Shown: positions 12,866 to 44,985 of the stretch, in pieces
How positions within the stretch are numbered: the stretch's first letter is position 1
How the letters are laid out: each line of letters opens with the position of its first letter
Assembly (NCBI RefSeq): GCF_002095395.1
Contig: NZ_MJEI01000096.1
Span: 62,001 to 126,000 of the forward strand
Source of the DNA: Williamsia sp. 1135
GTDB taxonomy: Bacteria > Actinomycetota > Actinomycetes > Mycobacteriales > Mycobacteriaceae
Direction: 5' to 3'
DNA length: 64,000 bases
The notes under the pieces: model-generated
The model's database searches: none
The model's input: the letters and a program-made list of their open reading frames with translations, nothing else
Told to the model about the DNA's origin: nothing
Translations under genes and position numbers: made by a program

Positions 12866-12967
12866 CGCCGACCGTGCCGATACAGCCGCTGACCGTGCCG
12901 AAACAGCCGCCGACCGTGCCGAAACAGCCGCTGACCGTGCCGAAACAGCCGCCGACCGTGCCGAAAA
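12866..12967 (+). repeat. 21-bp tandem repeat array, 5 units (family A)
   Basis: Five head-to-tail units of 21 bp with the core ACCGTGCCGAAACAGCCG followed by CTG or CCG in alternation (cores at 12871, 12892, 12913, 12934, 12955; the first unit has GATACAG). The array starts 4 bp after the dioxygenase stop and ends at the stop of the convergent helix-hairpin-helix gene. Related arrays are at 24437-24540, 24590-24660 and 44944-44985. Confidence 0.9.
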
Positions 12968-12968
12968 G

Positions 12969-13181
12969 TCAGGTCGCGAACGACAGCCCGCGGTCGGTGA
13001 GCTCTTCGTCGAGGATGCGGATGGCCTTCGGCCCGACGCCGTGGATCTGCAGCAGTTGTTTGGCCGTGACCTCGGTCAGTTGACGGAACGTCGTATAGCC
13101 GTGGACAGCGAGTTGCCGTCGCGCGACTTTGCCGAGCCGTAGCGGGAACTCGGTTGTCGGACCGGGCTCTTCGATCGCCAC
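12969..13181 (-). CDS. Small helix-hairpin-helix protein (70 residues)
   Basis: A 70-residue protein, LRLGKVARRQLAVHGY..., whose second half TVTAKQLLQIHGVGPKAIRIL-like segment (TAKQLLQIHGVGPKAIRIL) is a helix-hairpin-helix of the kind in the RNA polymerase alpha C-terminal domain and DNA-repair proteins. Non-specific DNA binding is expected; the role is unknown. GTG 13181 was chosen because AAGGA lies 9 nt upstream and homologous-looking sequence begins there; the frame is open far upstream but without family features. Confidence 0.72.
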   Translation of the reverse strand: MAIEEPGPTTEFPLRLGKVARRQLAVHGYTTFRQLTEVTAKQLLQIHGVGPKAIRILDEELTDRGLSFAT

Positions 13182-13309
13182 CGTGAGACATCCTTTGCGC
13201 CGAGTGGACTGCGAACCGAGGCGGGTGCCACGATCGGAGTTTACGTTGGACGTTGCCGACGCGGTGTCGGTCGCAGAATCACTGGCCGGGCACCGGCATG
13301 GAGGCCACG

Positions 13310-14428
13310 ATGCAGGACGTGCTCGCAGAGCTGATGCAGATCTGGCGCAGCGGCGGGACCGCCGGTGTCGGCACCGTTGTCCGGACTTTCCGTTCGGCGC
13401 CTCGGCCGCCCGGTGCGTCGATGGTGGTCGCACCGGACGGCACCGTCAGCGGGTCGGTGTCCGGCGGCTGCGTCGAGGGAGCGGTCTACGACTCGGCGTC
13501 CGCCGTTGCGGAGTCGGGGATACCGTCGCTGGAGCGCTATGGGGTGAGCGACGACGACGCGTTCGCGGTCGGCCTGACCTGCGGCGGAATCCTGGACATC
13601 TTCACCGAATCCGTATCTCAGACAACGTTTCCCGAACTCGGTGACATTGCCGACGACATCGAGCAGCACCGTCCGGTGGCCATCGCGACCGTGGTCTCGC
13701 ATGTCGACGCCTCGTGGGTGGGTCGCCGGCTGATCGTCCGCACCGACACCGCGCAGGGGTCACTCGGCTCCGGTCGGATGGACAACGCGGTGGTCGACGA
13801 CGCGCGGGGATTGTTGGCCGCCGGCCGCAGCGAGGTGCTGACCTACGGTCCCGACGGTCAACGCCGGGGCGAGGGTATGGCCGTGTTCGTCGCTGCTCAC
13901 GCCCCCCGTCCACGGATGCTCGTGTTCGGGGCCATCGATTTCGCCGCGGCGGTCGCACAGCAGGGCTCGTTTCTGGGCTACCGCGTGACGGTCTGCGATG
14001 CCCGCGCAGTCTTTGCGACGTCCGCACGTTTCCCGACAGCCGACGAGGTTGTCGTCGAGTGGCCGCACCGGTATCTGTCCGCTCAGCTCGCGACCGGATC
14101 GCTCGACGCCAGGACCGTCATCTGCGTCCTCACGCATGACCCGAAGTTCGACGTCCCGTTGCTCGAGGTGGCGCTGCAGATGCCGGAGGTCGCGTTCGTC
14201 GGCGCGATGGGCTCGAGGCGTACCCATCTCGACAGGCTCGACCGGTTACGCGAAGCGGGGCTGACGCATGAACAGATCGATCGGCTCTCCAGTCCGATCG
14301 GACTCGACCTCGGCGCCCGGACGCCGGCGGAGACCGCGGTGTCCATAGCGGCCGAGATCATCGCGAAACGCTGGGGCGGCGGCGGTCGTCCACTCACCGA
14401 GATCGACGGCCGGATTCACCACGAGTGA
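13310..14428 (+). CDS. XdhC/CoxI-family protein
   Basis: A 372-residue protein with the N-terminal XdhC/CoxI segment (GTVVRTFRSAPRPPGASMVV..GSVSGGCVEGAVYD...LTCGG) and the C-terminal Rossmann-like domain with VGAMGSRRTHLDRLDRL and SPIGLDLGARTPAETAVSIAAEI. XdhC binds, sulfurates and inserts the molybdenum cofactor into xanthine-dehydrogenase-type enzymes. No molybdo-hydroxylase gene is adjacent, though cofactor synthesis genes occur at 31-36 kb. ATG 13310 follows GGAGG at 13300-13304. Confidence 0.82.
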   Translation: MQDVLAELMQIWRSGGTAGVGTVVRTFRSAPRPPGASMVVAPDGTVSGSVSGGCVEGAVYDSASAVAESGIPSLERYGVSDDDAFAVGLTCGGILDIFTESVSQTTFPELGDIADDIEQHRPVAIATVVSHVDASWVGRRLIVRTDTAQGSLGSGRMDNAVVDDARGLLAAGRSEVLTYGPDGQRRGEGMAVFVAAHAPRPRMLVFGAIDFAAAVAQQGSFLGYRVTVCDARAVFATSARFPTADEVVVEWPHRYLSAQLATGSLDARTVICVLTHDPKFDVPLLEVALQMPEVAFVGAMGSRRTHLDRLDRLREAGLTHEQIDRLSSPIGLDLGARTPAETAVSIAAEIIAKRWGGGGRPLTEIDGRIHHE

Positions 14429-14495
14429 CCCGATGATGGGTCGTTCTGGCGGTCGCGACCTGCGCAAATGATCGCCAAAACGACCCATCATCGGG
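14429..14495. repeat. Long imperfect palindrome (family B, copy 1)
   Basis: Arms 14429-14454 and 14470-14495 are complementary over 26 positions with 2 mismatches; the outer arm starts CCCGATGATGGG. It fills the gap between convergent genes and could act as a bidirectional terminator. Related palindromes lie near 28528, 37370 and 50287. Confidence 0.8.
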
Positions 14496-14504
14496 GATGG
14501 CGGG

Positions 14505-15237
14505 CTATTCGGCGCTGGGTGGTGGTGTGAAACCGGCGGGCCAGATGGTTGCGCTGTCGTACGAGACTCCGTCGAAGTCCGCGCCGGACAGATTGGCCCC
14601 GGTCAGATCCACCCCGGCGAAGGTGGCATCGACGAACTTCGCATCGGTGAGATCGATGTCGGCGAGGCTCACCTCGACCAGGCCCGTCTGGCTGAAGTCG
14701 GCACCGGGCGCCTTGGCTCCGGCCAATTCGGTCAGTACCACCGGTTGTCCGGGGGCCGGCGACTGCGCGAGCTCGTTGTTGATCACCACGTATCGCAGGT
14801 CCGCGCCGGTCAGGTCGGCACCCTTGAGATTGACACCGATGGCCAGCACGCCGGTGAGGTCGGCATAGGCGAGGTTCGCGCCTTCGAGATTGGTCTGCAG
14901 CAGATCACATCCGCTGAGCTTGGCCTCCCCGAAGTTCGCGCGGGGCAGGTCGAGCCCGGCCAGGCTCAGCCCGGCCAGATCGATGGCGAAGAACGGCCGC
15001 TCCACAGTGGGGTCGGCGATCGAGCGCCCACGGACGAAGCGCAGATTCTCGAGCCGCTCGGCGCGAGCGTTCTCCTGCCGGGAGATCTCGTGATCGCGAT
15101 CGGCGCGCACGTCGTCGATGAGTTTTTGCCCGACGATGGTGCCCACGCTGACGACCACCCGCCACGATCCCCGAGATCAGGACGTCGCGGACCCACCATC
15201 GCGGTTCGCGGGTGGACCGCCTGGAATCCGACGACAT
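14505..15237 (-). CDS. Pentapeptide-repeat protein with N-terminal membrane segment; apparent frameshift
   Basis: The frame that ends at 14505 encodes about 30 tandem A(D/N)LXX pentapeptides (LPRANFGEAKLSGCDLLQTN..., LTDAKFVDATFAGVDLTGAN), which fold into a quadrilateral beta-helix. In that frame the protein would start at GTG 15158, inside a hydrophobic segment. The other frame upstream reads MSSDSRRSTREPRWWVRDVLISGIVA from ATG 15237, with GAGG 8 nt upstream. Removing one base of the CCC at 15158-15160 joins them as ISGIVAVVVSVGTIVG, a complete membrane helix, giving 243 residues. So the gene is either frameshifted or misread there. Confidence 0.7.
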
Positions 15238-15286
15238 CTGCTCATCCTCACGCACTCCGGGGGCCGCGTTCGCCCGAACTCCGTCC

Positions 15287-15317
15287 ATCGGCGGGTCCCG
15301 GTCGGGGACCCGCCGAT
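15287..15317 (-). terminator. Hairpin downstream of the flavin monooxygenase gene
   Basis: A perfect 13-bp stem ATCGGCGGGTCCC (15287-15299) with its complement (15305-15317), 5-nt loop, 11 bp after the monooxygenase stop on the minus strand. There is no clear T-run, so termination efficiency is uncertain. Confidence 0.65.
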
Positions 15318-15327
15318 CCGACGCGAT

Positions 15328-16941
15328 CTATCGGAAGGTCTTCTTCAGGTGAACGACGAGATCGTCGCTGGAGACCGCGCCTGCGCTGTACCCCAAATAG
15401 CCGTCCGGCCGGATCACGAAGAGCGAACGATCCTGGGCGCCATAGGCTTCGACGAAGGTCCCAGCGGTGTCGCGGATGACCGGCAGTACGGTAGGCGCGA
15501 CTTCGGCGCCCGGGGAGGCGACGAGGTAGATGTCGAGTTCACCGTGAGCAGCCGACTGCGCGGTCTCGACCACGCGCTCGATCTCGAGGAGATCGTCGGT
15601 GGTCGTTGCCCCGTCTAGGTGGATGACGACGGTGTGCCGCAACCGGTCCAGTAGCGAGAACAACCGGATCGGGTCGGTGACCATGTCCCTGGTGAGACCC
15701 TTGGCGTCCGGAGCGCGCACCCCTGGCCGGAGGATCGCCTCGTCGGAGGACTTTTCGATGAGGGGGCTGTCCGCGTACTCGATGAGGAGCTGGGCCTCGC
15801 GGCGCATGACATAGGCGGGGTCGTTTTCTCCCGCGCCGATACCCTCACGGGCGCTGCGGACGGTACGGCCGACAACCTCCTCGCCGACGGGTCGGCGTTC
15901 GGCGTCGTAGCTGGCGGTCAACCCGTCCGAGGCCTTGCCCTGGACGGCCAAGGCCACCTTCCAGGCGATGTTGTGGGCGTCCTGGATGCCGGTGTTCATG
16001 CCCTGCCCGCCGGTGGGCGGATGAATGTGCGCGGCGTCGCCTGCGACGAAGACCCGACCGTGACCGTAGGAATCCACGATGCGGTGGCTGATCCGGAACA
16101 CCGACGACCAGCGCAGATTTCGTGCGGTGGTCGGTTCGGGGGAGAGGCGATCGAGAACGGCCTGGACGTGAGAGAGTTCGGGCTTCTTCTCACCCTCGAA
16201 TCCATGTGCGACAGCGCCGCGTTCGGGTTTCGCGGTAGCGAGTTCGTCGGGGACCAACATTGACATCCGGTACCTACCCCGGCCGTACAGGGGGATGCAG
16301 ACGAGCAGATCATCGGTCTTTCCGTCGGTCTGGTGCATGGCCCGGATTCCGTAGCCGGCGGGCTGCGACCAATCGACCTCGACATCGCCGAGCATGTACT
16401 GCTCTTCGAAGGCCGCGCCCTCGAAGGTCAGGCCGAGGGTCTTCCGGGTGACGCTGTGCGCTCCGTCCGCGCCGATGAGGTACTGGGCGGTGACCGTCTC
16501 TTCGCCGTCGGGAGTGGACAGGGTCGCGGTGACGCCGTCCGTGTTCTGCTCGAAACCGGTCAGAGCCTTGCCGCGCTCGATCGGCTGCTCGAGGGTTGCG
16601 AGTCGTTCCCGCAGGATGCGTTCGGTGACGTACTGGGGGATCGAGGCGAAGCCGAACGGCACATCGTCCGGAAGTTCGAGGTCGATCCGTCCCGCTTCCT
16701 CGCCGTTGACGAACACAACCTGGCCGCGCATCTGTGTCGAGGAGTCCAGGATCTGACGCAATACACCCATGCCCTCGAAGACCTCGAGCGTCCGAGGCTG
16801 AACCCCGACTGCCTTCGCATACTGCGGTGGCTCGAGCAGGGGGTCGACGATTCGGCACCGGACGCCACGCCGTCGCAGCTCGATCGCGGCGGTCAACCCG
16901 ACCGGTCCGGCTCCGACCACGAGGACTTCTGTTTCTGCCAC
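15328..16941 (-). CDS. FAD-dependent aromatic monooxygenase (group A, PheA/TfdB-like)
   Basis: A 537-residue protein with the three flavin motifs of group A hydroxylases: GAGPVGLTAAIELRRRG near the N-terminus, the DG motif LIGADGAHSVTRK and the GD motif GRVFVAGDAAHIHPP followed by GGQGMNTGIQDAHNIAWK. The last 150 residues look like the thioredoxin-like dimerisation domain of phenol hydroxylases. It would hydroxylate an aromatic substrate with NAD(P)H and O2; which substrate is unknown. It is transcribed away from yceI with a palindrome between the two genes. Confidence 0.82.
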   Translation of the reverse strand: MAETEVLVVGAGPVGLTAAIELRRRGVRCRIVDPLLEPPQYAKAVGVQPRTLEVFEGMGVLRQILDSSTQMRGQVVFVNGEEAGRIDLELPDDVPFGFASIPQYVTERILRERLATLEQPIERGKALTGFEQNTDGVTATLSTPDGEETVTAQYLIGADGAHSVTRKTLGLTFEGAAFEEQYMLGDVEVDWSQPAGYGIRAMHQTDGKTDDLLVCIPLYGRGRYRMSMLVPDELATAKPERGAVAHGFEGEKKPELSHVQAVLDRLSPEPTTARNLRWSSVFRISHRIVDSYGHGRVFVAGDAAHIHPPTGGQGMNTGIQDAHNIAWKVALAVQGKASDGLTASYDAERRPVGEEVVGRTVRSAREGIGAGENDPAYVMRREAQLLIEYADSPLIEKSSDEAILRPGVRAPDAKGLTRDMVTDPIRLFSLLDRLRHTVVIHLDGATTTDDLLEIERVVETAQSAAHGELDIYLVASPGAEVAPTVLPVIRDTAGTFVEAYGAQDRSLFVIRPDGYLGYSAGAVSSDDLVVHLKKTFR

Positions 16942-17092
16942 TGCGCTACCGCCTGTCTCGAGTTTCGCTTCCCGCCCCGACTCAGATTATGCAAGGAAAC
17001 GGACAGCCGGGAGTGCTTCCGGTCACATTCTGGCAGCGTCGACGCAGGTCAATCGCACTCGAATGATCGATCGGGTCATCCGGGAATGTATT

Positions 17093-17106
17093 CGGACCAA
17101 GGTCCG
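17093..17106. promoter_or_regulatory. Palindrome in the yceI promoter spacer
   Basis: CGGACC-AA-GGTCCG is a perfect 14-bp palindrome that ends 2 bp before a TAGACT -10 box (17109-17114), in the region divergent between the monooxygenase and yceI genes. The geometry fits an operator that blocks the yceI promoter, perhaps for the TetR encoded at 17808-18431 or a distant regulator. Confidence 0.5.
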
Positions 17107-17154
17107 TTTAGACTCTCTGTAGGCCCAAAACGCACTTCACCAAGGAGCAATCAC

Positions 17155-17706
17155 ATGAGCACCACACTCACCACCACCGATCTGGAAGCCGGCACCTGGA
17201 CCATCGACCCGGTGCACTCGTCCGTCTCCTTCTCCGTTCGTCACCTCATGGTCAGCAAGGTGCGCGGCAAGTTCGAGACCTTCTCGGGCGCCATCACCGT
17301 CGACGAGAACGGCGCTCCTTCGGTCACCGCCGAGATCGACGTCAACTCGATCAACACCGGCAACGAAGGCCGCGACGGCCACATCAAATCTGCTGACTTC
17401 TTCGAGGTCGAGAAGTACCCGACCGCGACCTTCACGAGCACCTCGGTCAAGGCCGACGGCGACGACTACGCCCTCGAGGGTGACTTCACCCTCCATGGCG
17501 TGACCCGCCCGGTCACCCTCAAGCTCGAGTTCAACGGTGTCAACCCCGGCATGGGCAACGGCCCGGTCGCAGGCTTCGAGGCTTCGGTTGTGCTCAACCG
17601 CAAGGACTTCGGTATCGACATCGACATGCCCCTCGAGACCGGCGGCAGCGTCGTCGGCGACAAGGTCACCATCACCCTCGAGATCGAGGCCGGCAAAGCT
17701 GCCTGA
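17155..17706 (+). CDS. YceI-family lipid-binding lipocalin-like protein
   Basis: A 183-residue protein starting WTIDPVHSSVSFSVRHLMVSKVRG and containing AEIDVNSINTGNEGRDGHIKS and FTLHGVTRPVTL, diagnostic of YceI proteins. They form an elongated barrel that binds an isoprenoid or other amphiphile. No signal peptide is seen, so a cytoplasmic location is likely. AAGGAG lies 7 nt before the ATG, and the promoter -10 TAGACT is about 40 nt upstream. Confidence 0.88.
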   Translation: MSTTLTTTDLEAGTWTIDPVHSSVSFSVRHLMVSKVRGKFETFSGAITVDENGAPSVTAEIDVNSINTGNEGRDGHIKSADFFEVEKYPTATFTSTSVKADGDDYALEGDFTLHGVTRPVTLKLEFNGVNPGMGNGPVAGFEASVVLNRKDFGIDIDMPLETGGSVVGDKVTITLEIEAGKAA

Positions 17707-17754
17707 TCTCGCCTGAAACCACCTGGTCCGATCCCCCCGTCGGATCAGGTTCAG

Positions 17755-17800
17755 CGGCGGCCGCGCGTACCGGAAGATCCCGGTGCCGCGGCCGCCGTTT
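17755..17800 (+). terminator. Terminator between yceI and the convergent TetR gene
   Basis: An 11-bp stem CGGCGGCCGCG (17755-17765) pairs with 17787-17797, with an inner ACCGG/CCGGT stem in the loop, and is followed by TTT. A weaker hairpin (CTGGTCCGA/TCGGATCAG) precedes it at about 17723-17748. Confidence 0.75.
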
Positions 17801-17807
17801 CCATCTG

Positions 17808-18431
17808 TCAGTGGGCCGTGAGTCCGGCCAGCAGCAGATCGACGAGGCCGCCGAGGTAGTGCTCGTCGACGGGTTCGCGACTGAGCAGCACCCGCGTGTA
17901 TATAGGTGCGTGGAGCACCTCGAGTGCCAATGCGAAGTCGGGTTGAACGGTGTCGACAATCTCGCCGCGAGCGATGGCCCGCGCAAAGATCACTGCCAGC
18001 ACATCGAGTCTGGCCTCGACCATGCGGCGCCGTGCCTCGTCGAGAGGGTCGATGTCCACCGGCATCGCCGCCAGTCGCAGGAGTGCCTTCATCTGCGGAC
18101 TCGTGAGAGAGGTGTGCAGATCGGCGCACATCGCGATGAGATCGCCGCGGAGCGAACCCGTGTCCGGAGAGGCGATCGATGGATCGAAATGATCGATGAG
18201 GGCGTCTGTGACCAACTGCTCTTTGGTCTTCCACCGCCGGTAGATCGAGGTCACGTGGACGCCGGCACGCTCGGCGACGTGAGCGATGGTCAGACCGTCG
18301 AAACCGACGTTGAGCAGCTCATGAACCGCGGCTGACATCACGCCGTCGCGGACAGCGGCCCCCCGACGATGCGACCGGGTCGTGCTCGGTCGCTCCGGTG
18401 CGGGGGGAGGGGGCTGCGTCACCTGCTCCAC
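17808..18431 (-). CDS. TetR-family transcriptional regulator
   Basis: A 207-residue protein with a Pro/Arg-rich N-terminal extension, a TetR helix-turn-helix (FDGLTIAHVAERAGVHVTSIYRRWKTKEQLV, about residues 46-76) and a helical C-terminal domain ending in the YTRVLLSREPVDEHYLGGLVDLLLAGL region. The GTG start lies 3 bp from a near-perfect 22-bp inverted repeat, which suggests autoregulation. It is divergent from the adenylate cyclase gene. Confidence 0.8.
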   Translation of the reverse strand: MEQVTQPPPPAPERPSTTRSHRRGAAVRDGVMSAAVHELLNVGFDGLTIAHVAERAGVHVTSIYRRWKTKEQLVTDALIDHFDPSIASPDTGSLRGDLIAMCADLHTSLTSPQMKALLRLAAMPVDIDPLDEARRRMVEARLDVLAVIFARAIARGEIVDTVQPDFALALEVLHAPIYTRVLLSREPVDEHYLGGLVDLLLAGLTAH

Positions 18432-18433
18432 TC

Positions 18434-18455
18434 TAACGCAACTCCAGTTGCATTA
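18434..18455. promoter_or_regulatory. Probable TetR operator between TetR and cyclase genes
   Basis: TAACGCAACT-CC-AGTTGCATTA is an inverted repeat with 10-bp arms and one mismatch. It starts 3 bp from the TetR start codon and ends just before TATACT (18458-18463), a likely -10 for rightward transcription. A dimer bound here would affect both genes. Confidence 0.6.
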
Positions 18456-18535
18456 TGTATACTCACCGGCGAGACTTCCGTTGCGGTCGGGGCCACGTCC
18501 GGGGCACGATCAGCGGCGAGAGAAGGCGGACCTCG

Positions 18536-20218: not shown

Positions 20219-20240
20219 AGACCTTCCAACACAAGGAGAC

Positions 20241-20273
20241 ATGCACGTGAACACAGGTACGTTGAAGCTATGA
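20241..20273 (+). CDS. Possible 10-residue leader peptide ahead of the SDR gene
   Basis: ATG 20241 follows a strong AAGGAG by 3 nt and encodes MHVNTGTLKL. Its TGA overlaps the SDR start codon (ATGA), a coupling arrangement. It may be fortuitous, because the SDR gene also has a leaderless-type promoter (TACGTT, 6 nt before its ATG) inside this mini-ORF. Confidence 0.25.
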   Translation: MHVNTGTLKL

Positions 20274-21154: not shown

Positions 21155-21186
21155 CCGGCGTCGACGACCCGCTCTGAGGCTCTGCT

Positions 21187-22067: not shown

Positions 22068-23425
22068 CGGTTCTGACCATCGCGTTCGGAATTCTCGTAG
22101 TCCTTCTCATCACCGCACTCACGGGTTACTTCGTAGCCCAGGAGTTCGCGTTCATGTCGGTCGATCGCTCCCGGCTCAAGGCCGGAGCCGAGGCCGGCGA
22201 TTCCGGTGCGGCACGGGCTCTGTCGGTGACCCGCCGCACGTCGTTCATGCTCTCGGGTGCCCAGCTCGGGATCACTGTGACCGGTCTGCTGGTCGGCTAC
22301 GTCGCCGAGCCGCTGATCGGCCGGGGCCTCGGCGAACTACTCGGTGGGGTCGGGATTCCGACGGCGGTCGGGATTGCCGTCGGTGTGGTCTTGGCCGTGC
22401 TGTTCTCGACGTTCGTGCAGATGCTCTTCGGCGAGCTGTTCCCGAAGAACCTGGCCATCGCGCGACCAGAACCGGTTGCCCGGTGGCTGGCGAGGTCGAC
22501 CACCATTTACCTGCGATTGTTCGGCTGGCTGATCTGGCTGTTCGACCAGTCGTCGAATCTGCTGCTGAAGGCGTTGCGGATCGAACCCGTGCACGACGTC
22601 GAGCACTCGGCGACGGCCCGCGACCTCGAACACATCGTGGCGCAGTCCCGCGATGCCGGGGAACTGCCTGCCGAACTGTCGACCCTGCTCGATCGGATTC
22701 TCGACTTCCCGACGAGGACCGCCGAACATGCCATGATCCCGCGCTCACGAGTCGACACCGTCCGTGCCGACACTCCGGCCTCGGAGGTGCTGGCGAAGAT
22801 GGGGGCCGGGCACACGCGCTACCCCGTGATCGGGGAAGGCGCCGACGAATTGTGCGGTGTCATCCATCTGCACGATCTCCTCGGCGATTCGGTCGACGGT
22901 ACGGCCGCCGGTCGGATGCGGCCCGCGGTCGTCGTACCCACGACGTTGCCGTTGCCGCAGGTTCTGGCACAGCTCTCGGATCAGTCGGAGGAGATGGCGC
23001 TCGTGGTGGATGAGTACGGCGGTTTCGCCGGCGTGATCACCACCGAAGACATGGCCGAGGAACTCGTCGGCGAGATCGTCGACGAACACGATCCCGAAGG
23101 TGTCAGCGTGGTGGAGGGTTCGCCCGAGTCGGGGTGGACGATGACCGGCGACATGCACATCGACGAAGTGCAGCGAGTGCTCGGATTCGACCTGCCCGAA
23201 GGCGATTTCGAGACCCTCGCCGGCGCGGTCGTCGCCCGGTTCGAAGGGTTGCCCGCGATCGGTGAGGTCGTCCGGATCCCCCTCCCGGCCGACCCGTCGG
23301 ACTTGCTAGACGACGACGCGGCGCCGCAACGCGCCCTGGTCGCCGAGGTACTGGAGATCGACAAGCACGTGCCTGCATCGCTGTTCGTGACGCTGGCCAT
23401 CGACGAAGGATCTGACGATGAGTGA
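22064..23425 (+). CDS. CNNM/CorC (HlyC)-type transporter with CBS pair
   Basis: A 453-residue protein with an N-terminal CNNM/DUF21 membrane domain (four helices, about residues 1-190), two CBS repeats (about 205-335, with HTRYPVIGEGADELCGVIHLHDL and MALVVDEYGGFAGVITTEDMAEELVGEI) and a C-terminal CorC_HlyC domain. Members move or sense Mg2+/Co2+ or related cations. It starts with TTG at 22064, where a short upstream ORF ends. It overlaps the next gene by 8 nt. Confidence 0.85.
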   Translation: MTVLTIAFGILVVLLITALTGYFVAQEFAFMSVDRSRLKAGAEAGDSGAARALSVTRRTSFMLSGAQLGITVTGLLVGYVAEPLIGRGLGELLGGVGIPTAVGIAVGVVLAVLFSTFVQMLFGELFPKNLAIARPEPVARWLARSTTIYLRLFGWLIWLFDQSSNLLLKALRIEPVHDVEHSATARDLEHIVAQSRDAGELPAELSTLLDRILDFPTRTAEHAMIPRSRVDTVRADTPASEVLAKMGAGHTRYPVIGEGADELCGVIHLHDLLGDSVDGTAAGRMRPAVVVPTTLPLPQVLAQLSDQSEEMALVVDEYGGFAGVITTEDMAEELVGEIVDEHDPEGVSVVEGSPESGWTMTGDMHIDEVQRVLGFDLPEGDFETLAGAVVARFEGLPAIGEVVRIPLPADPSDLLDDDAAPQRALVAEVLEIDKHVPASLFVTLAIDEGSDDE

Positions 23426-24431
23426 TCCGTGGATCGTTCTCGCCGTCACCGTGGGGCTCATCGCCGCGAGTGCGTTCTTCGTCGCAGTCGAGTTCGCGCT
23501 GATCGCCGCACGGCGGCACCGCCTCGAAGACGCCGCACCCGGCAGCCGGTCGGCGCGCGCGGCGCTACGCAGTTCCAGCGAGCTCTCGGTGTTGCTCGCC
23601 GGTTCGCAGCTCGGTATCACCGTCTGCACGCTCGCGCTCGGTGCAGTCACCAAACCTGCTGTGCGCCACTGGCTCACCCCGATCTTCGATGACTGGGGTG
23701 CGCCCCTCTGGCTGGCCGACGTGCTCGGATTCGTGCTCGCGCTGATCATCGTCACGTTCTTGCATCTCGTGGTCGGGGAGATGGCGCCCAAGTCCTGGGC
23801 GATCGCTCATCCGGAAAAATCTGCGACCCTGCTGGCCATCCCGATGCGCGGGTTCATGTGGCTTACAAGGCCATTGCTCAACCTGCTGAATCAGATGGCC
23901 AACGCGCTCCTGCGCACGGTCGGCGTGACGCCGGTGGATCAGGTTGACACGGGCCAGGATTCAGCCGCCCTGAAGCACCTCGTCGAACACTCGGCGACGG
24001 TGGGAACGCTCGACGAGCGGTATCACGGACAGCTGGCGGTCGCGCTGGAGCTCGAGCACCTGTCCGTCGGCGAACTCGTACCCGTAACCGCTGCACCGAG
24101 CACGGTCGACATCGGTGCGAGCGCGGCAGACGTGCGCGGCGCCGGTCATCGCAGCGGACATCTGCGACTGCTGGTCAGCGGCGCCGGCGGCATCGAAGGC
24201 GTGGTGCACGTGCGGGACAGCGTGGATGCGCCCGCACATACGACCGCGTCGGACCTGATGCGTCCGGTGCTGACGTTGGCCGCGGCGACTCCCGTGTACG
24301 AGGCACTCGGCACGATGCGGGAGAGCCGCAATCACCTTGCTGTCGTAGTCGATGACGCCGGGTTCCGCGGGGTGCTGACCATCAACGACGTCCTGGCCGA
24401 GCTGATGCCCACCCCAGCGGTGCCCGCCTAG
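23418..24431 (+). CDS. Second CNNM-domain transporter with CBS pair
   Basis: A 337-residue paralogue of the preceding gene: a DUF21 membrane domain (AASAFFVAVEFALIAARRHRL, SQLGITVCTLALGAV, VVGEMAPKSWAI) and two CBS repeats ending LAVVVDDAGFRGVLTINDVLAEL. It lacks the C-terminal CorC_HlyC domain of its partner. The 8-nt overlap suggests stoichiometric production, perhaps of a hetero-oligomer. Paired genes of this kind occur in mycobacteria (Rv1841c/Rv1842c). Confidence 0.83.
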   Translation: MSDPWIVLAVTVGLIAASAFFVAVEFALIAARRHRLEDAAPGSRSARAALRSSSELSVLLAGSQLGITVCTLALGAVTKPAVRHWLTPIFDDWGAPLWLADVLGFVLALIIVTFLHLVVGEMAPKSWAIAHPEKSATLLAIPMRGFMWLTRPLLNLLNQMANALLRTVGVTPVDQVDTGQDSAALKHLVEHSATVGTLDERYHGQLAVALELEHLSVGELVPVTAAPSTVDIGASAADVRGAGHRSGHLRLLVSGAGGIEGVVHVRDSVDAPAHTTASDLMRPVLTLAAATPVYEALGTMRESRNHLAVVVDDAGFRGVLTINDVLAELMPTPAVPA

Positions 24432-24436
24432 ACCTC

Positions 24437-24540
24437 CGCCGACCGTGCCGGTAACGCCGCCGACCGTGCCGAAACAGCCGCCGACCGTGCCGAAACAGCC
24501 GCCGACCGTGCCGAAACAGCCGCCGACCGTGCCAAAACTC
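24437..24540 (+). repeat. 21-bp tandem repeat array, 5 units, forward (family A)
   Basis: GACCGTGCC recurs at 24441, 24462, 24483, 24504 and 24525, exactly 21 bp apart, with the same ACCGTGCCGAAACAGCCG core as at 12866-12967. The first and last units are degenerate. It begins just after the transporter stop and reads in that gene's direction. Confidence 0.9.
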
Positions 24541-24589
24541 CTCGGCTGAGGTCGCACCGGCGCCATTCCGGCACGCTCGCTGGGCTTTT

Positions 24590-24660
24590 CGGCACGGTGA
24601 ACGGTTGTTTCTGCACGGTCGACGGTTGTTTGGGCACGGTGAACGGTTGTTTCGGCACGC
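24590..24660 (-). repeat. 21-bp tandem repeat array, 4 units, inverted (family A)
   Basis: Four reverse-complement units (GCACGGT or GCACG at 24592, 24613, 24634 and 24655), again 21 bp apart, end 15 bp from the stop of the minus-strand aminotransferase gene. Each unit therefore reads in the direction of the gene it follows. With the forward array 50 bp away it forms a large inverted repeat. Confidence 0.88.
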
Positions 24661-24675
24661 TCGATGGCGCCTGGG

Positions 24676-25851
24676 TCAGGCGAGCGCTCGGAGTCGGTCT
24701 GCAGCTTGCGCGATCACGTCGTCTTTCTTGGCGAAAGCGAAGCGGACCAGATGATTCCAGGGTTCGGGGTGATCGACGAAGGCGCTGACCGGCACCGCGG
24801 CTACACCGATGCGGCCGGGGAGGTCGCGGCACAGCGCAGCGCCGTCGTGGTAGCCGAGCGGCCGCGGGTCGGCACAGACGAAGTAGGTTCCCTCGCTCCG
24901 GTGTACACCGAATCCGACATCCGTCAGCGCCGCCGAGATCAGGTCGCGTTTGCGCTGTAGTGCCGCCGCCGATCCCGCAACCCAGTCCATCTGCGACTCC
25001 AGGGCCACCGCCACCGCCGGCTGAAACGGGCCACTGCCGACGTAGCTCATGAACTGTTTCGCAGCCCGGGCCGCGGCAACGAGTTCGGCCGGACCGCTGA
25101 TCCAGCCCACCTTCCAGCCGGTGACGTTGAAGGTCTTACCCGCCGACGAGACCCGTAATGTCCGTTCTTTCATGCCGGGCAGGGTGGCGAGCGGGGTGTG
25201 CTGACGGCCGTCGAACAGCAGATGCTCGTAGACCTCGTCGGTCAATGCGACCACGTCGTTGTCGATACAGACCGCGGCTATGGCTGCGAGGTCGTCGGCG
25301 GAAAGAACGGTGCCCGTAGGGTTGTGGGGACTGTTGATCACCACCAGCGCGGTCTTCGGGGTCACGGCTGCCGCCAGGGCGTCGCGGTCGAAGGTGAAGC
25401 CGTCGCCGTCCGCGACCAGTGGCACGGTCACGCGCTTGGCTCCCGCCATGGCGGTCGCGGCGGCGTAGGCGTCGTAATAGGGCTCGATCATGACGACCTC
25501 GGAGCCCGGCTCCACAAGGCCGACGACGGCGCCCGCGATAGCCTCGGTGGCGCCGACGGTGATCAGCACCTCGGTATCCGGGTTGTACTGCAGCCCATAA
25601 TGTTCGAGTTGATGCTTGGCCACGGCAGCCCGCAACGCGGGGATCCCGGGGCCGGGGGGATATTGATTCTGTCCGGTGCCGATCGCGTCCTGCGCGGCGG
25701 CGAGCATGGCGGCGGGGCCGTCTGTGTCAGGAAAACCCTGGCCGAGATTGATGGCGTCATGCGTGACCGACAGCTGCGACATCTCGGCGAAGATCGTGGA
25801 TGAAAACGGTTGTAACCGTGCGACGGTCCGCATGCCACGCTTAGCAGTCAT
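24676..25851 (-). CDS. dapC: PLP-dependent class I/II aminotransferase (DapC-like)
   Basis: A 391-residue fold-type I aminotransferase with NLGQGFPDTDGP, VINSPHNPTGTVL, ALTDEVYEHLLFDG and the PLP lysine in SSAGKTFNVTGWKVGW. By position beside the XPB helicase it matches M. tuberculosis Rv0858c, reported as N-succinyl-diaminopimelate aminotransferase of lysine/peptidoglycan synthesis. By sequence alone, kynurenine or methionine aminotransferase activity cannot be excluded. TAAGCT lies 6 nt before the ATG. Confidence 0.78.
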   Translation of the reverse strand: MTAKRGMRTVARLQPFSSTIFAEMSQLSVTHDAINLGQGFPDTDGPAAMLAAAQDAIGTGQNQYPPGPGIPALRAAVAKHQLEHYGLQYNPDTEVLITVGATEAIAGAVVGLVEPGSEVVMIEPYYDAYAAATAMAGAKRVTVPLVADGDGFTFDRDALAAAVTPKTALVVINSPHNPTGTVLSADDLAAIAAVCIDNDVVALTDEVYEHLLFDGRQHTPLATLPGMKERTLRVSSAGKTFNVTGWKVGWISGPAELVAAARAAKQFMSYVGSGPFQPAVAVALESQMDWVAGSAAALQRKRDLISAALTDVGFGVHRSEGTYFVCADPRPLGYHDGAALCRDLPGRIGVAAVPVSAFVDHPEPWNHLVRFAFAKKDDVIAQAADRLRALA

Positions 25852-34808: not shown

Positions 34809-34809
34809 C

Positions 34810-36529: not shown

Positions 36530-36542
36530 GTCACCGACCAGC

Positions 36543-37360: not shown

Positions 37361-37369
37361 CCCGACCTC

Positions 37370-37431
37370 CGATCTTGGTGGGTTCTGGCGAGCGTTTCCC
37401 CTGGTCACGCGCGCCACAACCCACCATTTCC
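37370..37431. repeat. Imperfect palindrome (family B, copy 3)
   Basis: GATCTTGGTGGGTTCTGGCG and its partner CGCCACAACCCACCATTTCC form a stem with a few mismatches, between the convergent cold-shock and DUF2771 genes. Confidence 0.8.
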
Positions 37432-37446
37432 GGTTGCGGCTGGGTG

Positions 37447-39851: not shown

Positions 39852-39926
39852 GATTGTTCCCTATCCCCGGTTGGCCGACCAACCCTCGGGCGCCTGCGGC
39901 GAGTTGCGATACGGCACACTGGAGGG

Positions 39927-40718
39927 GTGAACGCGGTAACCGAGCAGGCAGACACAGCAACTGATCACGAACAGGCAGATCAGCAGCGCGTGGCAACGTT
40001 GCTGGCCGGGGCCGTCTCGCAGGCGCGGGAGGCCATCGACGCAGAGGGTGACGAGGTCGGTGACCACCTCGACGCGGTGACCGAGGCGAGCTACACCGTC
40101 ACCCACTACTTCGCCGCCGACGTCCCCGGTTACCGGGGATGGCAGTGGTGCGTCGTGCTCGCGGGCTGTCCCGACAGCGACGACGTGACCGTCAACGAGG
40201 TCGCCCTGCTCCCCGGATCCCAGGCGCTGACCGCGCCCGACTGGGTGCCGTGGGCCGAGCGGCTCAAACCGGGCGATCTCCATCCCGGCGACCTGCTCGC
40301 CAGCCCACCCGACGACCCCCGCCTGGAACCGGGCTACGTCGACAACGGCGACGTCGATCCCGTCGACCCGGCAACACAGGTCGTCGCGGAACTGGGCCTG
40401 GGCCGCGACCGGTTGATGACTCGCGAAGCCCGCCTCGACACCGCGCAGCGTTGGGCCGAAGGCGAATACGGCCCGGACTCGCCGATGGCGCAAGGCGCTC
40501 GCCACAATTGCGTCAGCTGCGGTTTCTACCTCCCGATCGTCGGCGCACTGCGCGCGGCGTTCGGGGTGTGCGCCAACGAGTACTCCGCGGACGGGCGGGT
40601 GGTGCACGCCGATCACGGGTGCGGTGCCCACACCGACGTCAAGGCGCCCTCGGGTGCCGGCAGTCCGGCCTATGACGCCTTCGACGACGGTGCGGTCGAA
40701 ATCCACGCCAACTCCTGA
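39927..40718 (+). CDS. DUF3027 protein (Rv0877-like)
   Basis: A 263-residue soluble protein with HYFAADVPGYRGWQWCVVLAG, EVALLPGSQALTAPDWVPWAERLKPGDL and a four-cysteine site NCVSCGFYLP...FGVCANEYSADGRVVHADHGCGAH that may bind metal. This is the actinobacterial DUF3027 family, function unknown. GTG 39927 directly follows GGAGGG, too close for a normal ribosome site; CACACT 6 nt upstream suggests a leaderless mRNA. Confidence 0.82.
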   Translation: MNAVTEQADTATDHEQADQQRVATLLAGAVSQAREAIDAEGDEVGDHLDAVTEASYTVTHYFAADVPGYRGWQWCVVLAGCPDSDDVTVNEVALLPGSQALTAPDWVPWAERLKPGDLHPGDLLASPPDDPRLEPGYVDNGDVDPVDPATQVVAELGLGRDRLMTREARLDTAQRWAEGEYGPDSPMAQGARHNCVSCGFYLPIVGALRAAFGVCANEYSADGRVVHADHGCGAHTDVKAPSGAGSPAYDAFDDGAVEIHANS

Positions 40719-40723
40719 CGCCG

Positions 40724-43501
40724 GTGCCTGACGCTGCCGATGGGGGAGCCGATCTCCGATCGGGGGGTCGGGCAGCCGATCTCCGATCGGGTGCGGATCC
40801 GTTCGGGATCAACGAGATCCGGGATTCGACCCTGCAATCCTGGCTCACCTCGCCGACCCGGCTGCGTGAAGACGTCGCAGCTGAGTCCGACCTCGTCGGG
40901 GTCGGGTACCGCGATCGGCTCCTCACCGAATTGGTGGCGAATGCCGCCGATGCGGCGACGGCCGCGGGGGTCTCCGGTGTGGTGAAGGTCTGGCTCGACG
41001 GCGCAGACCTGCACGTCGCGAACACGGGAAGTCCGCTCGACGCAGGCGGGGCCGCCGCGCTGACCGCGTTGCGTTCGTCGAACAAGACCGGCTCCGGGTT
41101 GGTGGGGCGCTTCGGGGTAGGGTTCACCGCCGTCGCCGCAGTGACCCGTCACGTCCAGATCCGTTCGCGCAGTGGGTCGATCGAGTTCTCCGCCGAACGC
41201 ACACGCACTGAATTGGCGGCGCATGGGATCGAGGCCGAGGAGGTCCCGACCCTGCGGCTCGCCTGGCCGGTCGATCTCGCGCCTGCGGCCGGTTTCGACA
41301 CCGAGGTGGTACTGCGCCTGGAACCCCACGTCGACACCGCGGTGATGATGCGGGAGTTCGCCGCGGAGGCCGTCGAGCTGTTGCTGGAATTGCCTGCGGT
41401 CGAGACGATTTCGGTAGCCGATCACCTGTTCACCCGGGAGCGCGCCGATTCGGTGGTGTCGGTGGGGTCGCAGAGGTGGCTGGAATATTCGGCTCCCCAT
41501 GCCCGCTGGCTGTTGCCGATGACGGGCGACTGGCTGGTGACCCGGCAGCGTGACGTGCTCCGCGCCCCGACGAGGACGGACGTAGAACTCACGGTCCCGG
41601 CGATCTGTATCGCCGACGTGCGTCTGACCGCTGACCGTCGTGGCTTGCATCCCGATGCTGACATAGCCACCGCGGCAATCGGATACGCGGACTTTGCCGC
41701 ATCCCTGCCCATCGACCAGCGGGCGATACTCGTTCCGGAACCGGGGTTCGCCGCGAGCCGTACCGATGAGCGTCTGCGCGGCGCTCTGATCGATGAGTTG
41801 TCCTCGCGTCCGTGGCTTCCGGGCGCCGGCGGCGACGACCTGATCCCGGAGCGCGCCGAGGTGCTCCTCGACCTGACATCCGGTTTGGCGGAACTCCTCG
41901 GCGAGATCATCACCACGCTGGTCCACCCCGACCTGTCCGACCGCAGTGCCGTCACCCGGCTGCGTTCGGTGGGCGTGACCGAGATCGGTCTGGCAGATAT
42001 AGCGTCGCGGCTCACCGGTATCGACCGCGAACCTCGTTGGTGGGGAAAGCTGTACACCGAGCTGTCGGTGGTCGCCCAGGGGCAGGTCGACGAACTCGGC
42101 GCCTTGCCGGTGCCGTTGACCGATGGCCGGACATTGCCCGGCGCGCGTGGCACGGTACTGCCTCCGCCGCAGTCCGACGACCCGGACACCGATGTCGTCG
42201 CGCCGTCGTGGCTGCCCACCGTGCATCCGCAGGCGGCCCATGAGCTGCTCGGACGCCTGGGTGCCCGGCAACTGTCGGTGTCGGAGATGCTGTCTGATCC
42301 GGCGCTGCGCGGCGAGATCGAGTCCGACCCGGAGGGTGATGACCTGGCCCGTAGCGTGCTGGGTCTGCTGCGCACCGCACCGGACGCGTCGGTACCGGCC
42401 TGGCTCGGACAGCTGCTGTTGCCGACCACGGACGGCGACGAGCGTCCGGCGGACGAGCTGCTGCTGCCGAACAGCCCGCTGGCGTCGGTCCTGATCGACG
42501 ATTCGCCGTTCGGCGTCGTCGACCCGGACTGGGTCGAAACGTATGGTGCAGAGGCCTTTCGCGCGCTCGGGGTGGGATGGGGGTTCACCGTCACCCATGA
42601 GGATTACCCGACCGGCCCCGACCACGATCTTGCCGACGAAGCACGGTGGTGGGACACGATCGGCGATCCGCCGCAGACGTTTTCGGCAGTTCGCGACCTC
42701 GACCTCGTCGACCAGGGCCGGTGGCCGCAGGCTCTGAGCCTGCTCGCGGAATCTCCGGACTGTGCAGCGTTGCTGACCGATCGCCGCGGTTACACGGCCT
42801 GGTGGCTTCGCCACTACGCGGAGATCGACGACGCGCCACTGGGGCACTGGCGGGCTCCGAGCGACGACACCATGGCGGGGCTGTTGGATCCGTTGGATCA
42901 TCCGCACGCGGATGAGCTGTCCGGGGCTCTGGGCGCGGCCGACGTCGAGGACACCGATCAGGCGTTGATGCTCTTGACCCACCTGGCCGATGCCGACCGG
43001 TCGATCAGCCCGTCGGTGGCTGCCATCGCCCACACCACACTCGCGGTGGCGCTCCGGGACGGGCGAATCGACCTCGGACGGATCGACCCCCCGAGCGGGC
43101 TGCGCACCCTCGCCGGATCTGTCGCAGACGACGCGGTGGTGTTGGACGTGCCCTGGCTCGCCGCGGCACTCGACCCCGCCGTCGTGGTCGCGTTGGCACC
43201 ACCGGGGTTTTCCCTGGCGACGCAACTGGCCGACCTGTTGGACATCCCGACGGCCACCGAGCAGTACTCCGGTGGTCCCACGGAGCCGGGGGAGGCCACG
43301 ACCTGGCAGGCGCACCCGCAGGCACTGAGGTCGGCCCTGATCCAGGACAGAGCACTACCCACCGGTCCCATCCGCGTCCACGAGTCGCTGACGATCGAAC
43401 TGCGCCGCGGCGACGAGCGCAGCGAGCACCGGGTTCCCTGGTGGCGTGACGAGCACGGGATGGTCCACGTGGATGCGGGGTTCGATGTCCTCGGTGGCTG
43501 A
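40724..43501 (+). CDS. Large GHKL-ATPase protein (sacsin/Hsp90-like N-terminal domain)
   Basis: A 925-residue protein. Residues 50-200 form a GHKL-type ATPase: ELVANAADAATAAG (N box with E and N), a DGADLHVANTGSPLD loop, and GSGLVGRFGVGFTAV (G2 box). The remaining 700 residues are rich in Leu, Asp and Pro, without known motifs, ending in a small beta region with HRVPWWRDEHGMVHVDAGF. The family is conserved in actinobacteria and annotated as sacsin-N or molecular-chaperone-like; no function is proven. A 27-bp direct repeat lies in its first codons. It starts 5 nt after DUF3027 and overlaps the PAP2 gene by 17 nt. Confidence 0.78.
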   Translation: MPDAADGGADLRSGGRAADLRSGADPFGINEIRDSTLQSWLTSPTRLREDVAAESDLVGVGYRDRLLTELVANAADAATAAGVSGVVKVWLDGADLHVANTGSPLDAGGAAALTALRSSNKTGSGLVGRFGVGFTAVAAVTRHVQIRSRSGSIEFSAERTRTELAAHGIEAEEVPTLRLAWPVDLAPAAGFDTEVVLRLEPHVDTAVMMREFAAEAVELLLELPAVETISVADHLFTRERADSVVSVGSQRWLEYSAPHARWLLPMTGDWLVTRQRDVLRAPTRTDVELTVPAICIADVRLTADRRGLHPDADIATAAIGYADFAASLPIDQRAILVPEPGFAASRTDERLRGALIDELSSRPWLPGAGGDDLIPERAEVLLDLTSGLAELLGEIITTLVHPDLSDRSAVTRLRSVGVTEIGLADIASRLTGIDREPRWWGKLYTELSVVAQGQVDELGALPVPLTDGRTLPGARGTVLPPPQSDDPDTDVVAPSWLPTVHPQAAHELLGRLGARQLSVSEMLSDPALRGEIESDPEGDDLARSVLGLLRTAPDASVPAWLGQLLLPTTDGDERPADELLLPNSPLASVLIDDSPFGVVDPDWVETYGAEAFRALGVGWGFTVTHEDYPTGPDHDLADEARWWDTIGDPPQTFSAVRDLDLVDQGRWPQALSLLAESPDCAALLTDRRGYTAWWLRHYAEIDDAPLGHWRAPSDDTMAGLLDPLDHPHADELSGALGAADVEDTDQALMLLTHLADADRSISPSVAAIAHTTLAVALRDGRIDLGRIDPPSGLRTLAGSVADDAVVLDVPWLAAALDPAVVVALAPPGFSLATQLADLLDIPTATEQYSGGPTEPGEATTWQAHPQALRSALIQDRALPTGPIRVHESLTIELRRGDERSEHRVPWWRDEHGMVHVDAGFDVLGG
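40748..40791 (+). repeat. Two-copy 27-bp direct repeat in the 5' end of the GHKL gene
   Basis: GCCGATCTCCGATCGGG occurs at 40748-40764 and 40775-40791, encoding a duplicated ADLRSG segment. Each copy also contains the palindrome CCGATCTCCGATCGG. Confidence 0.75.
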
Positions 43502-44150
43502 GGTCGTCGAGACCGACACGGTGTTCGGGCCCGATCAAGCGGTCCTGGATTGGCTGGTCGATCACCGGACCGGCTTCTGGGATTCGGCGATGAAAGCGGT
43601 CACGGTCCTGGGGAACACCGGGGTGCTCACGATGATCGCCGCCCTCGTGGCCGTGGTTCTCGCGAGCAAAAGGCAGTGGAGGCCGGCGATACTGGTCTCG
43701 GTCGGCTCGCTGGTGGGGTCGCTCGTCATGTTCGGGCTCAAACAGCTCATCGCACGGCCGAGGCCACCGATCCCGGAGCGGATGGTCGAGCTGTCGAGCT
43801 ACTCGTTCCCGTCAGGGCACGCGATGACGTCCACCGTTGTCTATGGGTCCATCGCGGTCTCGGCCTACTGGTGCAGCGATTGGGTTCGCGCGCACCGTTG
43901 GGTATTGGTGGCTGCGCCGGTGCTGGCCATCGCCATCGGGATTTCCCGGGTCTACCTGGGTGCACACTGGATGACCGACGTGCTGGCGGGTTGGGCCTTC
44001 GGATCGATCTATCTCGCGTTGGCGGCGTTCCTGGTGCTCAGGACAGACCCTGCTGGGCCGCCCGGCTCCCGCGGCGGACCGCCCACTTCTGCAGGGACAC
44101 CACGAAACAGCCGAACAAACCAACTCCGAGGCCGACCAGACAAATCGTGA
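43485..44150 (+). CDS. PAP2-family membrane phosphatase
   Basis: A 221-residue protein with six membrane helices and the three lipid-phosphatase motifs KQLIARPRP, SYSFPSGHAMTS and SRVYLGAHWMTD. It is expected to dephosphorylate undecaprenyl pyrophosphate or another lipid phosphate at the outer face of the membrane. ATG 43485 overlaps the GHKL gene by 17 nt. Its last 113 bp run antisense to the DUF2530 gene. Confidence 0.85.
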   Translation: MSSVAEVVETDTVFGPDQAVLDWLVDHRTGFWDSAMKAVTVLGNTGVLTMIAALVAVVLASKRQWRPAILVSVGSLVGSLVMFGLKQLIARPRPPIPERMVELSSYSFPSGHAMTSTVVYGSIAVSAYWCSDWVRAHRWVLVAAPVLAIAIGISRVYLGAHWMTDVLAGWAFGSIYLALAAFLVLRTDPAGPPGSRGGPPTSAGTPRNSRTNQLRGRPDKS

Positions 44151-44280
44151 GCGTGTTGTCGGTCCCGAGGCCCCAGCCTGCGACGACAACAGTGGCGATC
44201 AACCACCCGAGCATGCCGACGATGATGACCGGCGCGGGGGCGGTCAGCTTGTGTGGCAATTCGGGGATGTGGCCAGCCAT
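44038..44280 (-). CDS. DUF2530 small membrane protein (Rv0879c-like)
   Basis: An 80-residue protein: HIPELPHKLTAPAPVIIVGMLGWLIATVVVAG and LTICLVGLGVGLFGCFVVSLQKWAVRRGS, two membrane helices, the DUF2530 pattern. ATG 44280 has TAGTCT 7 nt upstream. The gene overlaps the 3' end of the PAP2 gene tail to tail by 113 bp; the PAP2 residues there are low-complexity, so the DUF2530 strand looks the more constrained one. Confidence 0.75.
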   Translation of the reverse strand: MAGHIPELPHKLTAPAPVIIVGMLGWLIATVVVAGWGLGTDNTLTICLVGLGVGLFGCFVVSLQKWAVRRGSRAAQQGLS

Positions 44281-44502
44281 GACCATCAGACTAATTCGAA
44301 TTGCGCGGACAGTGCGTCCGGGCCTTGGAAGTACATCATTTCGGAAAAACTGCACATAGTTTTGCCTGCGAAGAATCCGGTGTGCGCAGGCACAGAGGTG
44401 ATCGCCCGTGACACTAAGTTAACCGTAATTCACTGGTGGGTCGAACAAATGAACATCACCCGTTTGGCATGTATTTTCTGAAAGCTGACTTATCCTGGCT
44501 GC

Positions 44503-44934
44503 GTGGACCAGAATGACGAAAAGCTCGCGAGTGACTTGGCGTTGGCCGTGGTCCGACTGACGAGGCATCTGCGAGGCCGCAGAAATGCGTCGCCGGTGTC
44601 GCTCACGCAACTGTCGGCGTTGTCGACCCTGCGGAGAGAGGGGCCGATGACCCCGGGCGCGATCGCCGCCCGCGAGCGCGTGCAGCCCCCGTCGATGACC
44701 AGGGTGATCGCATCACTGGCGGACCTGGGGCTGGTGAAGCGTGATCCGCACCCCACCGATGGCAGGCAGGTGATCGTCACCCTGTCCCCGACGGGTGATG
44801 CCGTCGTGGTCGATGAGGCGAACGCTCGTGAAGAATGGCTGCGCGCCCAGCTCAAGCGCCTCGACGACGATCAGCTCGCCACCTTGCGCAACGCAGTCGG
44901 CATCATCGAATCCATCGTCGCCGAAAGCGACTGA
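44503..44934 (+). CDS. MarR-family transcriptional regulator (Rv0880-like)
   Basis: A 143-residue protein with the MarR winged helix: VSLTQLSALSTLRREGPMTPGAIAARERVQPPSMTRVIASLADLGLVKRDPHPTDGRQVIVTLSPTG in short. Rv0880, at this position in M. tuberculosis, is a MarR regulator linked to pH response. TATCCT lies 6 nt before GTG 44503. A degenerate 21-bp repeat pair follows the stop. Confidence 0.85.
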   Translation: MDQNDEKLASDLALAVVRLTRHLRGRRNASPVSLTQLSALSTLRREGPMTPGAIAARERVQPPSMTRVIASLADLGLVKRDPHPTDGRQVIVTLSPTGDAVVVDEANAREEWLRAQLKRLDDDQLATLRNAVGIIESIVAESD

Positions 44935-44943
44935 TCACCCCGC

Positions 44944-44985
44944 GACCGGGCCGAACCGACCGTCGACCGTGCCGAAGCAGTCTGC
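44944..44985 (+). repeat. Degenerate 21-bp repeat pair (family A)
   Basis: GACCGGGCCGAA (44944) and GACCGTGCCGAAGCAG (44965), 21 bp apart, lie between the convergent MarR and Eis-like genes and read in the MarR direction. Confidence 0.65.

Follow-up and report, generated by a model that had tools for sequence, protein, structure and literature searches.

The window analysed here is a 64-kb stretch of DNA from Williamsia sp. 1135 (G000:C104:62001-126000, G000 being the source genome of 5.98 Mb in 107 contigs), and its intergenic gaps carry arrays of a 21-bp tandem repeat. We regard these arrays as probably the dispersed, gene-less copies of a gene-repeat system whose gene encodes an AbiEi-like nuclease. 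Tandem Repeats Finder (TRF) called period-21 arrays at 12865-12966, 24436-24538, 24587-24659 (inverted) and 44940-44989, and the 15-bp core of the repeat has 20 matches in the window at three or fewer mismatches, as compared with 3.1 expected and a maximum of 7 over 100 shuffles. The four arrays reported in a first-pass annotation of the window are thus real. The first has five units of the CCGYYG-ACCGTGCCGAA type (12865..12965, + strand) and begins 3 nt past the stop of a gene (11902..12861, +) whose product has weak Dioxygenase_C similarity, slightly below the Pfam cut-off. The second, also of five units (24436..24536, +), begins 4 nt past the stop of a gene for a protein with a CNNM domain and a CBS domain (23418..24431, +). 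It is faced by a further array (24567..24667, -), 3' of the stop of a class I/II aminotransferase gene (24676..25851, -), and a 30-bp spacer (24537..24566, no strand) separates the innermost cores of the two. This inverted array had been credited with four units; the array stands but the count does not, since five units were scored, the innermost of which is degenerate. Two degenerate units (44940..44976, +) lie 3' of the stop of a MarR-type regulator gene (44503..44934, +), and the neighbouring gene on the other strand encodes a GNAT acetyltransferase with an SCP2_2 domain (44989..46215, -).

The repeat unit is RCCGYYG-ASCGTGCCSWA plus about three variable bases, with a period of 21 bp. Because the first core of each array is preceded by CCGYYG and nothing is conserved before that (145 runs), RCCGYYG is the start of the site and the core ASCGTGCCSWA is its end; the phase initially given to the unit has been corrected accordingly, and the variable bases sit after the core. 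A weight matrix detected 560 units in 133 arrays, and none in reversed sequence, in 2.2 Mb from six genomes, which is sequence chosen partly around matches. The source genome has 77 core matches at two or fewer mismatches, as compared with 9 for the reversed control. Tandem pairs at three or fewer mismatches were found in all nine genomes of the genus (4 to 137 each; controls 0-1), and arrays are carried by named records of W. muralis, W. soli, W. limnetica and W. sp. 1138. A sample of 151 genomes of the family gave strong tandem-pair signals in seven of the nine Williamsia genomes, the highest count being 322 in G003; G006 has 7, G005 has none, and G023, which belongs to a second genus, has 23. 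The remaining genomes of this sample have 0-3 tandem pairs per strand, like the control. A scan of named genomes for tandem pairs returned at least 116 stretches, mostly single matches in unrelated phyla that were taken as chance matches of coding sequence, and such a scan cannot prove absence elsewhere. Hormoscilla records contain 7 and 11 matches to the pattern within 8 kb, which look like an unrelated repeat family. Carriage by viruses, phages or plasmids was considered and rejected: ten stretches of viral contigs matched the pattern, none of them a relative, phages gave no match at E 1e-10, and three plasmid records hold relatives of about 31-32% identity.

Arrays occur genome-wide in Williamsia and are enriched at gene 3' ends. 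The contiguous sequence used for counting (1.19 Mb) consists of whole or long contig parts that were picked for holding matches and left untrimmed. Of its gaps of at least 60 bp, 73 are convergent and 7 of these hold an array; the corresponding figures are 11 of 282 for co-directional and 2 of 147 for divergent gaps (convergent gaps against the rest, Fisher p 0.017). The arrays had been described as confined to convergent gaps; since co-directional and divergent gaps also hold them, this is an enrichment and not a confinement. It had also been noted that every array reads in the direction of the gene whose stop it follows, which cannot fail in convergent gaps and is uninformative there; in single-array co-directional gaps it holds for 18 of 23 (p 0.011). 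The 3'-end position is supported by these gap statistics and by the 36 of 129 arrays that begin 0-8 nt past a same-strand stop codon. When arrays inside genes or in random orientation were looked for, the midpoint fell in a predicted open reading frame in 8 of 133 cases, and orientation was non-random. Seven of the eight reading frames are short and low-scoring, and one case is the extreme 3' end of a longer gene. A reading of the arrays as peptide repeats (21 bp being seven codons) was rejected since array starts fall in all frames relative to the stop, with offsets of, for example, 7, 9, 10, 14, 22 and 24. Where a gap holds two arrays, they face each other (><) in 30 of 31 cases, and six further gaps contain >< twice.

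Between facing arrays, the innermost cores are separated by distances that follow the helical turn of DNA. In set A (53 pairs, deduplicated to 40, with a limit of 150 bp that leaves out 183, 230 and 250) the distances are 20, 30-31, 42, 61-62, 72-74 and so on, with R 0.74 at 10.5 bp and a best period of 10.75 bp (n=37); without the class of spacer 20, R is 0.63 (n=26, p 3e-5). The 30-bp spacer in the window exceeds the commonest facing spacer (20 bp) by one helical turn. Set B was taken from genomes other than those in which the phasing was found, and among the matches listed for G001, G002 and G023 (150 of 202 for G001 and G002) it gave R 0.956 with a best period of 10.4-10.45 bp (n=15, a spacer of 265 left out); this set was inspected by eye before computation, was not deduplicated, and probably includes orthologous pairs, the spacers 41 and 93 being common to G001 and G002. 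Set C, from another genus with another unit sequence, gave R 0.87 at 10.5 bp and a best period of 10.65 bp among the matches listed for G113 and G137 (n=13). When the period was scanned with uniform random spacers, none of 2000 trials equalled any of the three sets. Of the off-grid spacers, 11 of 15 (A), 7 of 7 (B) and 5 of 6 (C) fall no more than 2 bp from an odd number of turns, the phase origin of set C having been fitted by eye in the odd-turn and random-trial analysis. These odd-turn spacers are not produced by loss of whole 21-bp units, since such loss makes even turns. For back-to-back arrays, phasing did not reach significance (n=8, p 0.24; n=25, p 0.17 in a looser set). Arrays that run in the same direction, where their spacing is not 21, follow the helical turn only weakly (n=42, p 0.016 at 10.5 bp), with 24, 35 and 45 off phase.

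A hairpin was rejected as the selected structure, because facing arms and their centres are not concordant beyond chance: in 49 pairs the base concordance at positions 2, 5, 9, 10 and 11 had P of 0.42, 0.07, 0.77, 0.35 and 0.09, and the 20-nt centres of facing pairs gave 93 of 230, as compared with 102 when shuffled. Facing-pair centres in G003 have a loose symmetric consensus in common. Helical spacing together with non-concordant arms points to a constraint on the double helix, namely a protein or oligomer on one face. The early suggestion that a protein could bind each unit on the same DNA face, made from the 21-bp period, therefore gains support from the whole-turn spacing of facing arrays, and such binding appears likely.

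Some facing arrays lie about 0.9 kb apart and enclose a gene. The same gene is enclosed in this way in the source genome, outside the window (G000:C52:37507-38379, in the order >>> gene <<<), and on C11 of G007, and a relative with 52% identity also lies between facing arrays in G023. The source genome has a second type of candidate gene between facing arrays at G000:C30:143-928. The product is a protein of about 290 aa, AbiEi-like, with a C-terminal MTES_1575/DUF559 (Vsr-type) nuclease domain, scoring 38.9 bits for MTES_1575 (cut-off 38.2) and 30.9 for DUF559 (cut-off 20.6). For AbiEi_1, the G007 protein is below the cut-off of 22.2 bits (19.1) and the G023 protein is above it (23.4), and PADLOC AbiEi models match the candidate proteins with best E values of 2.6e-8 and 8.9e-14. 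The residues EFDG, H and D..RD, which we take to be catalytic, are kept in five aligned array-flanked proteins. A search of solved structures with the candidate nuclease gave nothing significant, the best relevant E being 0.9.

Flanking by facing arrays on both sides was found at all eight homologues with at least 57% identity in the nine Williamsia genomes. These include six further close homologues (57-68% identity; G004 C22, G008 C8, G001 C17, G002 C19, G000 C30 and G002 C25), six of six having facing arrays on both sides; a one-side array was already visible at G001 C17 and G002 C19 before the flanks were inspected, and the other four loci were blind. Among 1020 genes in the contiguous sequence, one lies between facing arrays, and it is the nuclease gene. 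Of the 1969 genes in array-selected sequence, five have such flanks: two are the nuclease gene and three are ordinary genes (an enoyl-CoA hydratase, a photolyase and a protein that matches no Pfam family). None of five remote paralogues (27-34% identity) in the sequence examined is flanked by arrays. Purifying selection on the nuclease gene is indicated by dN/dS ratios of 0.10, 0.07 and 0.14 from three pairs, dS being saturated in the third. The six genomes with the nuclease gene have 62-126 tandem pairs, and those without a close homologue have 0 (G005), 7 (G006) and 322 (G003). Several arrays of G003 are near contig ends, and an assembly gap may hide a nuclease gene there.

The association extends to other genera. 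A search of 391 genomes of the family listed 41 relatives with at least 40% identity in two more genera, g34 and g9, and the flanks of ten of these 41 listed homologues were examined: an array of period 21-22 was present on one or both sides in every case, and on both in seven. Flanking of the gene by inverted repeats, which characterizes RAYT genes, was thus found at 9 of 9 loci in Williamsia and G023 and at 7 of 10 in g34 and g9. Unit sequences differ between most nuclease loci in g34 and g9, and each locus has its own: across 17 loci, left and right units compared as reverse complements agree at 0.85 within a locus, the value falling to 0.60 when units of different loci are paired and to 0.50 when the wrong strand is used. 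A unit initially noticed beside the G113 gene recurs throughout the genome in four of eight members of that genus (96, 91, 69 and 26 tandem pairs), and one more genome of the genus has a single pair; controls gave 0. Arrays of 21-22 bp period were absent from the 20 flanks of ten homologues with 36-41% identity from eight other genera; at G081 there are short repeats of 19 and 14 bp. The dividing line is the subfamily and not a value of identity, because G297 (40%) has an array and G081 (41%) does not. At G113 C9, G113 C47 and G137 C2, facing arrays 418-724 bp apart enclose no listed nuclease homologue and may hold other cargo or remnants.

Unit numbers change between relatives. The gap 3' of the CNNM gene has 5+5 units in the source; G002 retains a remnant and G001 a collapsed site, and G004-G008 have none. 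The gap 3' of the dioxygenase-like gene, compared among G000, G001, G002 and G007, has five units in the source, two variant units each in G001 and G002, and one in G007. In G001 the two units of this gap share one altered core and have a period of 22 bp, as joint homogenisation would produce.

Taken as a whole, the explanation that we consider probable is that the arrays are dispersed sites of a gene-repeat system, of which the AbiEi-like protein of about 290 aa with its MTES_1575/DUF559 nuclease domain is most likely the cognate protein. Each 18-bp unit would be a binding site of this protein, and the 21-bp period with whole-turn facing spacers would place the protein on one helix face, where it could oligomerise along and across arrays. 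The nuclease locus, >>> gene <<<, would be the cognate gene enclosed by its own arrays, and the single arrays and >>><<< pairs would be its non-autonomous satellites, which are tolerated chiefly downstream of stop codons. According to the available part of PMC7319586, members of the AbiEi family bind to 23-bp repeats located at the promoters of their own genes and separated by 3 or 13 bp, two distances that, as we would remark, differ by one helical turn; by this parallel the nuclease-family protein is likely to bind the array units. The nuclease domain might also copy or move the arrays, in the way proposed for RAYT and REP (repetitive extragenic palindromic) sequences.

Several points weigh against this explanation. 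The strongest is G003, which has the most tandem pairs (322) and in which no close nuclease homologue was found in the search of 391 genomes. Flanking is exclusive to the nuclease subfamily only nearly, in view of the three ordinary genes among the five that are flanked in the 1969. One nuclease copy, G002:C19:545507-546292, has an in-frame TAG and is maybe a decayed copy. At the loci in G041, G395 and G297 only one flank has an array, and the left and right units of G403 show low agreement (0.62), those of G395 also being a poor match. In the orthologous gaps compared, no insertion event with clear ends or a target duplication was seen. Furthermore, binding and cutting by the nuclease, as well as mobility, are what we infer from the arrangement of the sequences.

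An unlikely alternative is that a protein other than the nuclease, one that organises the chromosome or its topology, uses the arrays as its sites, and that the nuclease gene merely co-opts such sites for regulation or sits in array-rich spots. Phasing and facing order would suit any oligomerising DNA-binding protein, and G003 is rich in arrays without a close nuclease homologue, but in four genera a different nuclease locus goes with a different unit sequence, the unit beside one nuclease gene correctly foretold a dispersed family elsewhere, and arrays are absent or scarce in G005 and G006 (0 and 7 pairs), neither of which has a close homologue. We think it distinctly improbable that the arrays are transcription terminators, single arrays giving C-rich unstructured RNA for Rho loading behind a stop and facing arrays giving large two-way hairpins. 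The array starts at 0-8 nt past a stop (36/129) and the gene-directed orientation (18/23) fit this proposal, as do the RNA folds: RNA of single arrays folds at most as well as its shuffles, or less well (z 0.02, 3.03 and 2.36), and the facing pair of the window gives a very stable RNA hairpin (z -9.4). However, helical phasing of facing arrays is meaningless for RNA, the variable positions of facing arms and the centres are non-concordant (lowest P 0.07 in the 49 pairs), and the flanking of one nuclease subfamily is left unexplained. A G+C-rich hairpin with a T run, as in an intrinsic terminator, was found at 0 sites in 12500-13200 of the window, the scan covering one of the three gaps. It is very improbable that the arrays are neutral tandem repeats that slippage has enlarged in non-coding sequence and that have no protein partner. 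Homogenisation within arrays and unit numbers varying among relatives (5, 2, 2 and 1) speak for this reading, and slippage remains a part of array dynamics, but as a full account it is refuted by the phasing and the near-exclusive flanking of one gene subfamily; a conserved 17-18-bp site at unrelated loci and the facing order in 30 of 31 two-array gaps also weigh against it.

To our knowledge, few bacterial interspersed repeats have a known partner gene, and we know of no nuclease fold of this kind that spreads repeats. The main case with a partner gene is RAYT/REP, in which the gene is flanked by inverted repeats, gene-less copies are dispersed and the repeats are matched to the gene (PMC2817692, in the part available); the organisation is also described in the available part of PMC8266576. 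The gene-repeat system proposed here resembles the REP/BIME/REPIN-RAYT systems ("REPtrons"; PMC2817692) in the inverted flanking repeats, the gene-less intergenic copies and the match of repeats to gene, and array copy number, which for REP tracks the presence of RAYT (PMC2817692, same part), may likewise track the nuclease gene in most genomes, G003 being the exception. It differs in that Williamsia units are direct tandem repeats of 21-22 bp and not palindromes, that facing arrays are spaced by helical turns, and that the array-flanked protein matches AbiEi/MTES_1575/DUF559 profiles and not Y1/HUH; no Y1 family was found in this protein at E up to 1, a separate RAYT elsewhere in the genome not having been searched for. 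Thus the description "REP-like" in the first-pass annotation is apt for the organisation, with one gene subfamily flanked by arrays, but not for strict membership, and judged by a non-palindromic unit and the lack of an HUH match the arrays and nuclease are not members of REP/RAYT.

The AbiE type IV toxin-antitoxin system offers a second comparison, in which an apparent AbiEi-like similarity of the protein is shared, and in which AbiEi proteins bind repeats of similar length (23 bp) near their own gene (PMC7319586, in the part available). The candidate differs in carrying a nuclease domain, and its arrays stand on either side of the gene and are dispersed genome-wide. An AbiEii partner was not seen beside source C52, G007 C11 and G023 C18, the loci being read by eye and not searched by profile; the neighbours so read resemble a glycosylase-type protein, a helicase of RecQ type, an MFS transporter and a fragment of a hydrolase-like protein. 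The available part of PMC3710099 describes MTES_1575/DUF559 as a Vsr-type restriction endonuclease in large fusion proteins of conflict systems. The C-terminal domain of our candidate is above both Pfam cut-offs, yet unlike those fusions (PMC3710099) it is part of a small AbiEi-like protein tied to arrays, and unlike most relatives in the family it has arrays, as the 0 of 20 flanks in ten remoter homologues illustrates. A literature search found no description of such molecules or of such an array geometry, with preprints and most subscription journals outside the search, and we rate the gene-repeat pairing as new as a category, its logic having one precedent, RAYT/REP.

A wider proposal, which we offer tentatively and hold to be somewhat doubtful, is a class of selfish or domesticated gene-repeat elements without relation to REP/RAYT, in which an AbiEi-bodied nuclease would read phased facing arrays as a two-sided target in double-stranded DNA, cut at the spacer or edges and copy >>>gene<<< and >>><<< into gene ends, with protein and site co-evolving in sequence specificity in at least four genera. 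If a second gene-repeat pairing unrelated to RAYT/REP is true, the origin and spread of extragenic repeats could be tested in a new lineage, one subfamily of the abundant actinobacterial DUF559/AbiEi-like proteins would have a role, and there would be a natural series of protein-site pairs with differing specificity.

In a related group, the mycobacterial interspersed repetitive units (MIRU) are tandem intergenic repeats near stop codons; their units are longer than those of the present arrays and have another sequence, and we know of no cognate gene for them. Away from the arrays, TRF also detected a perfect 33-bp tandem duplication (2.0 copies) at 61489-61554 of the window.

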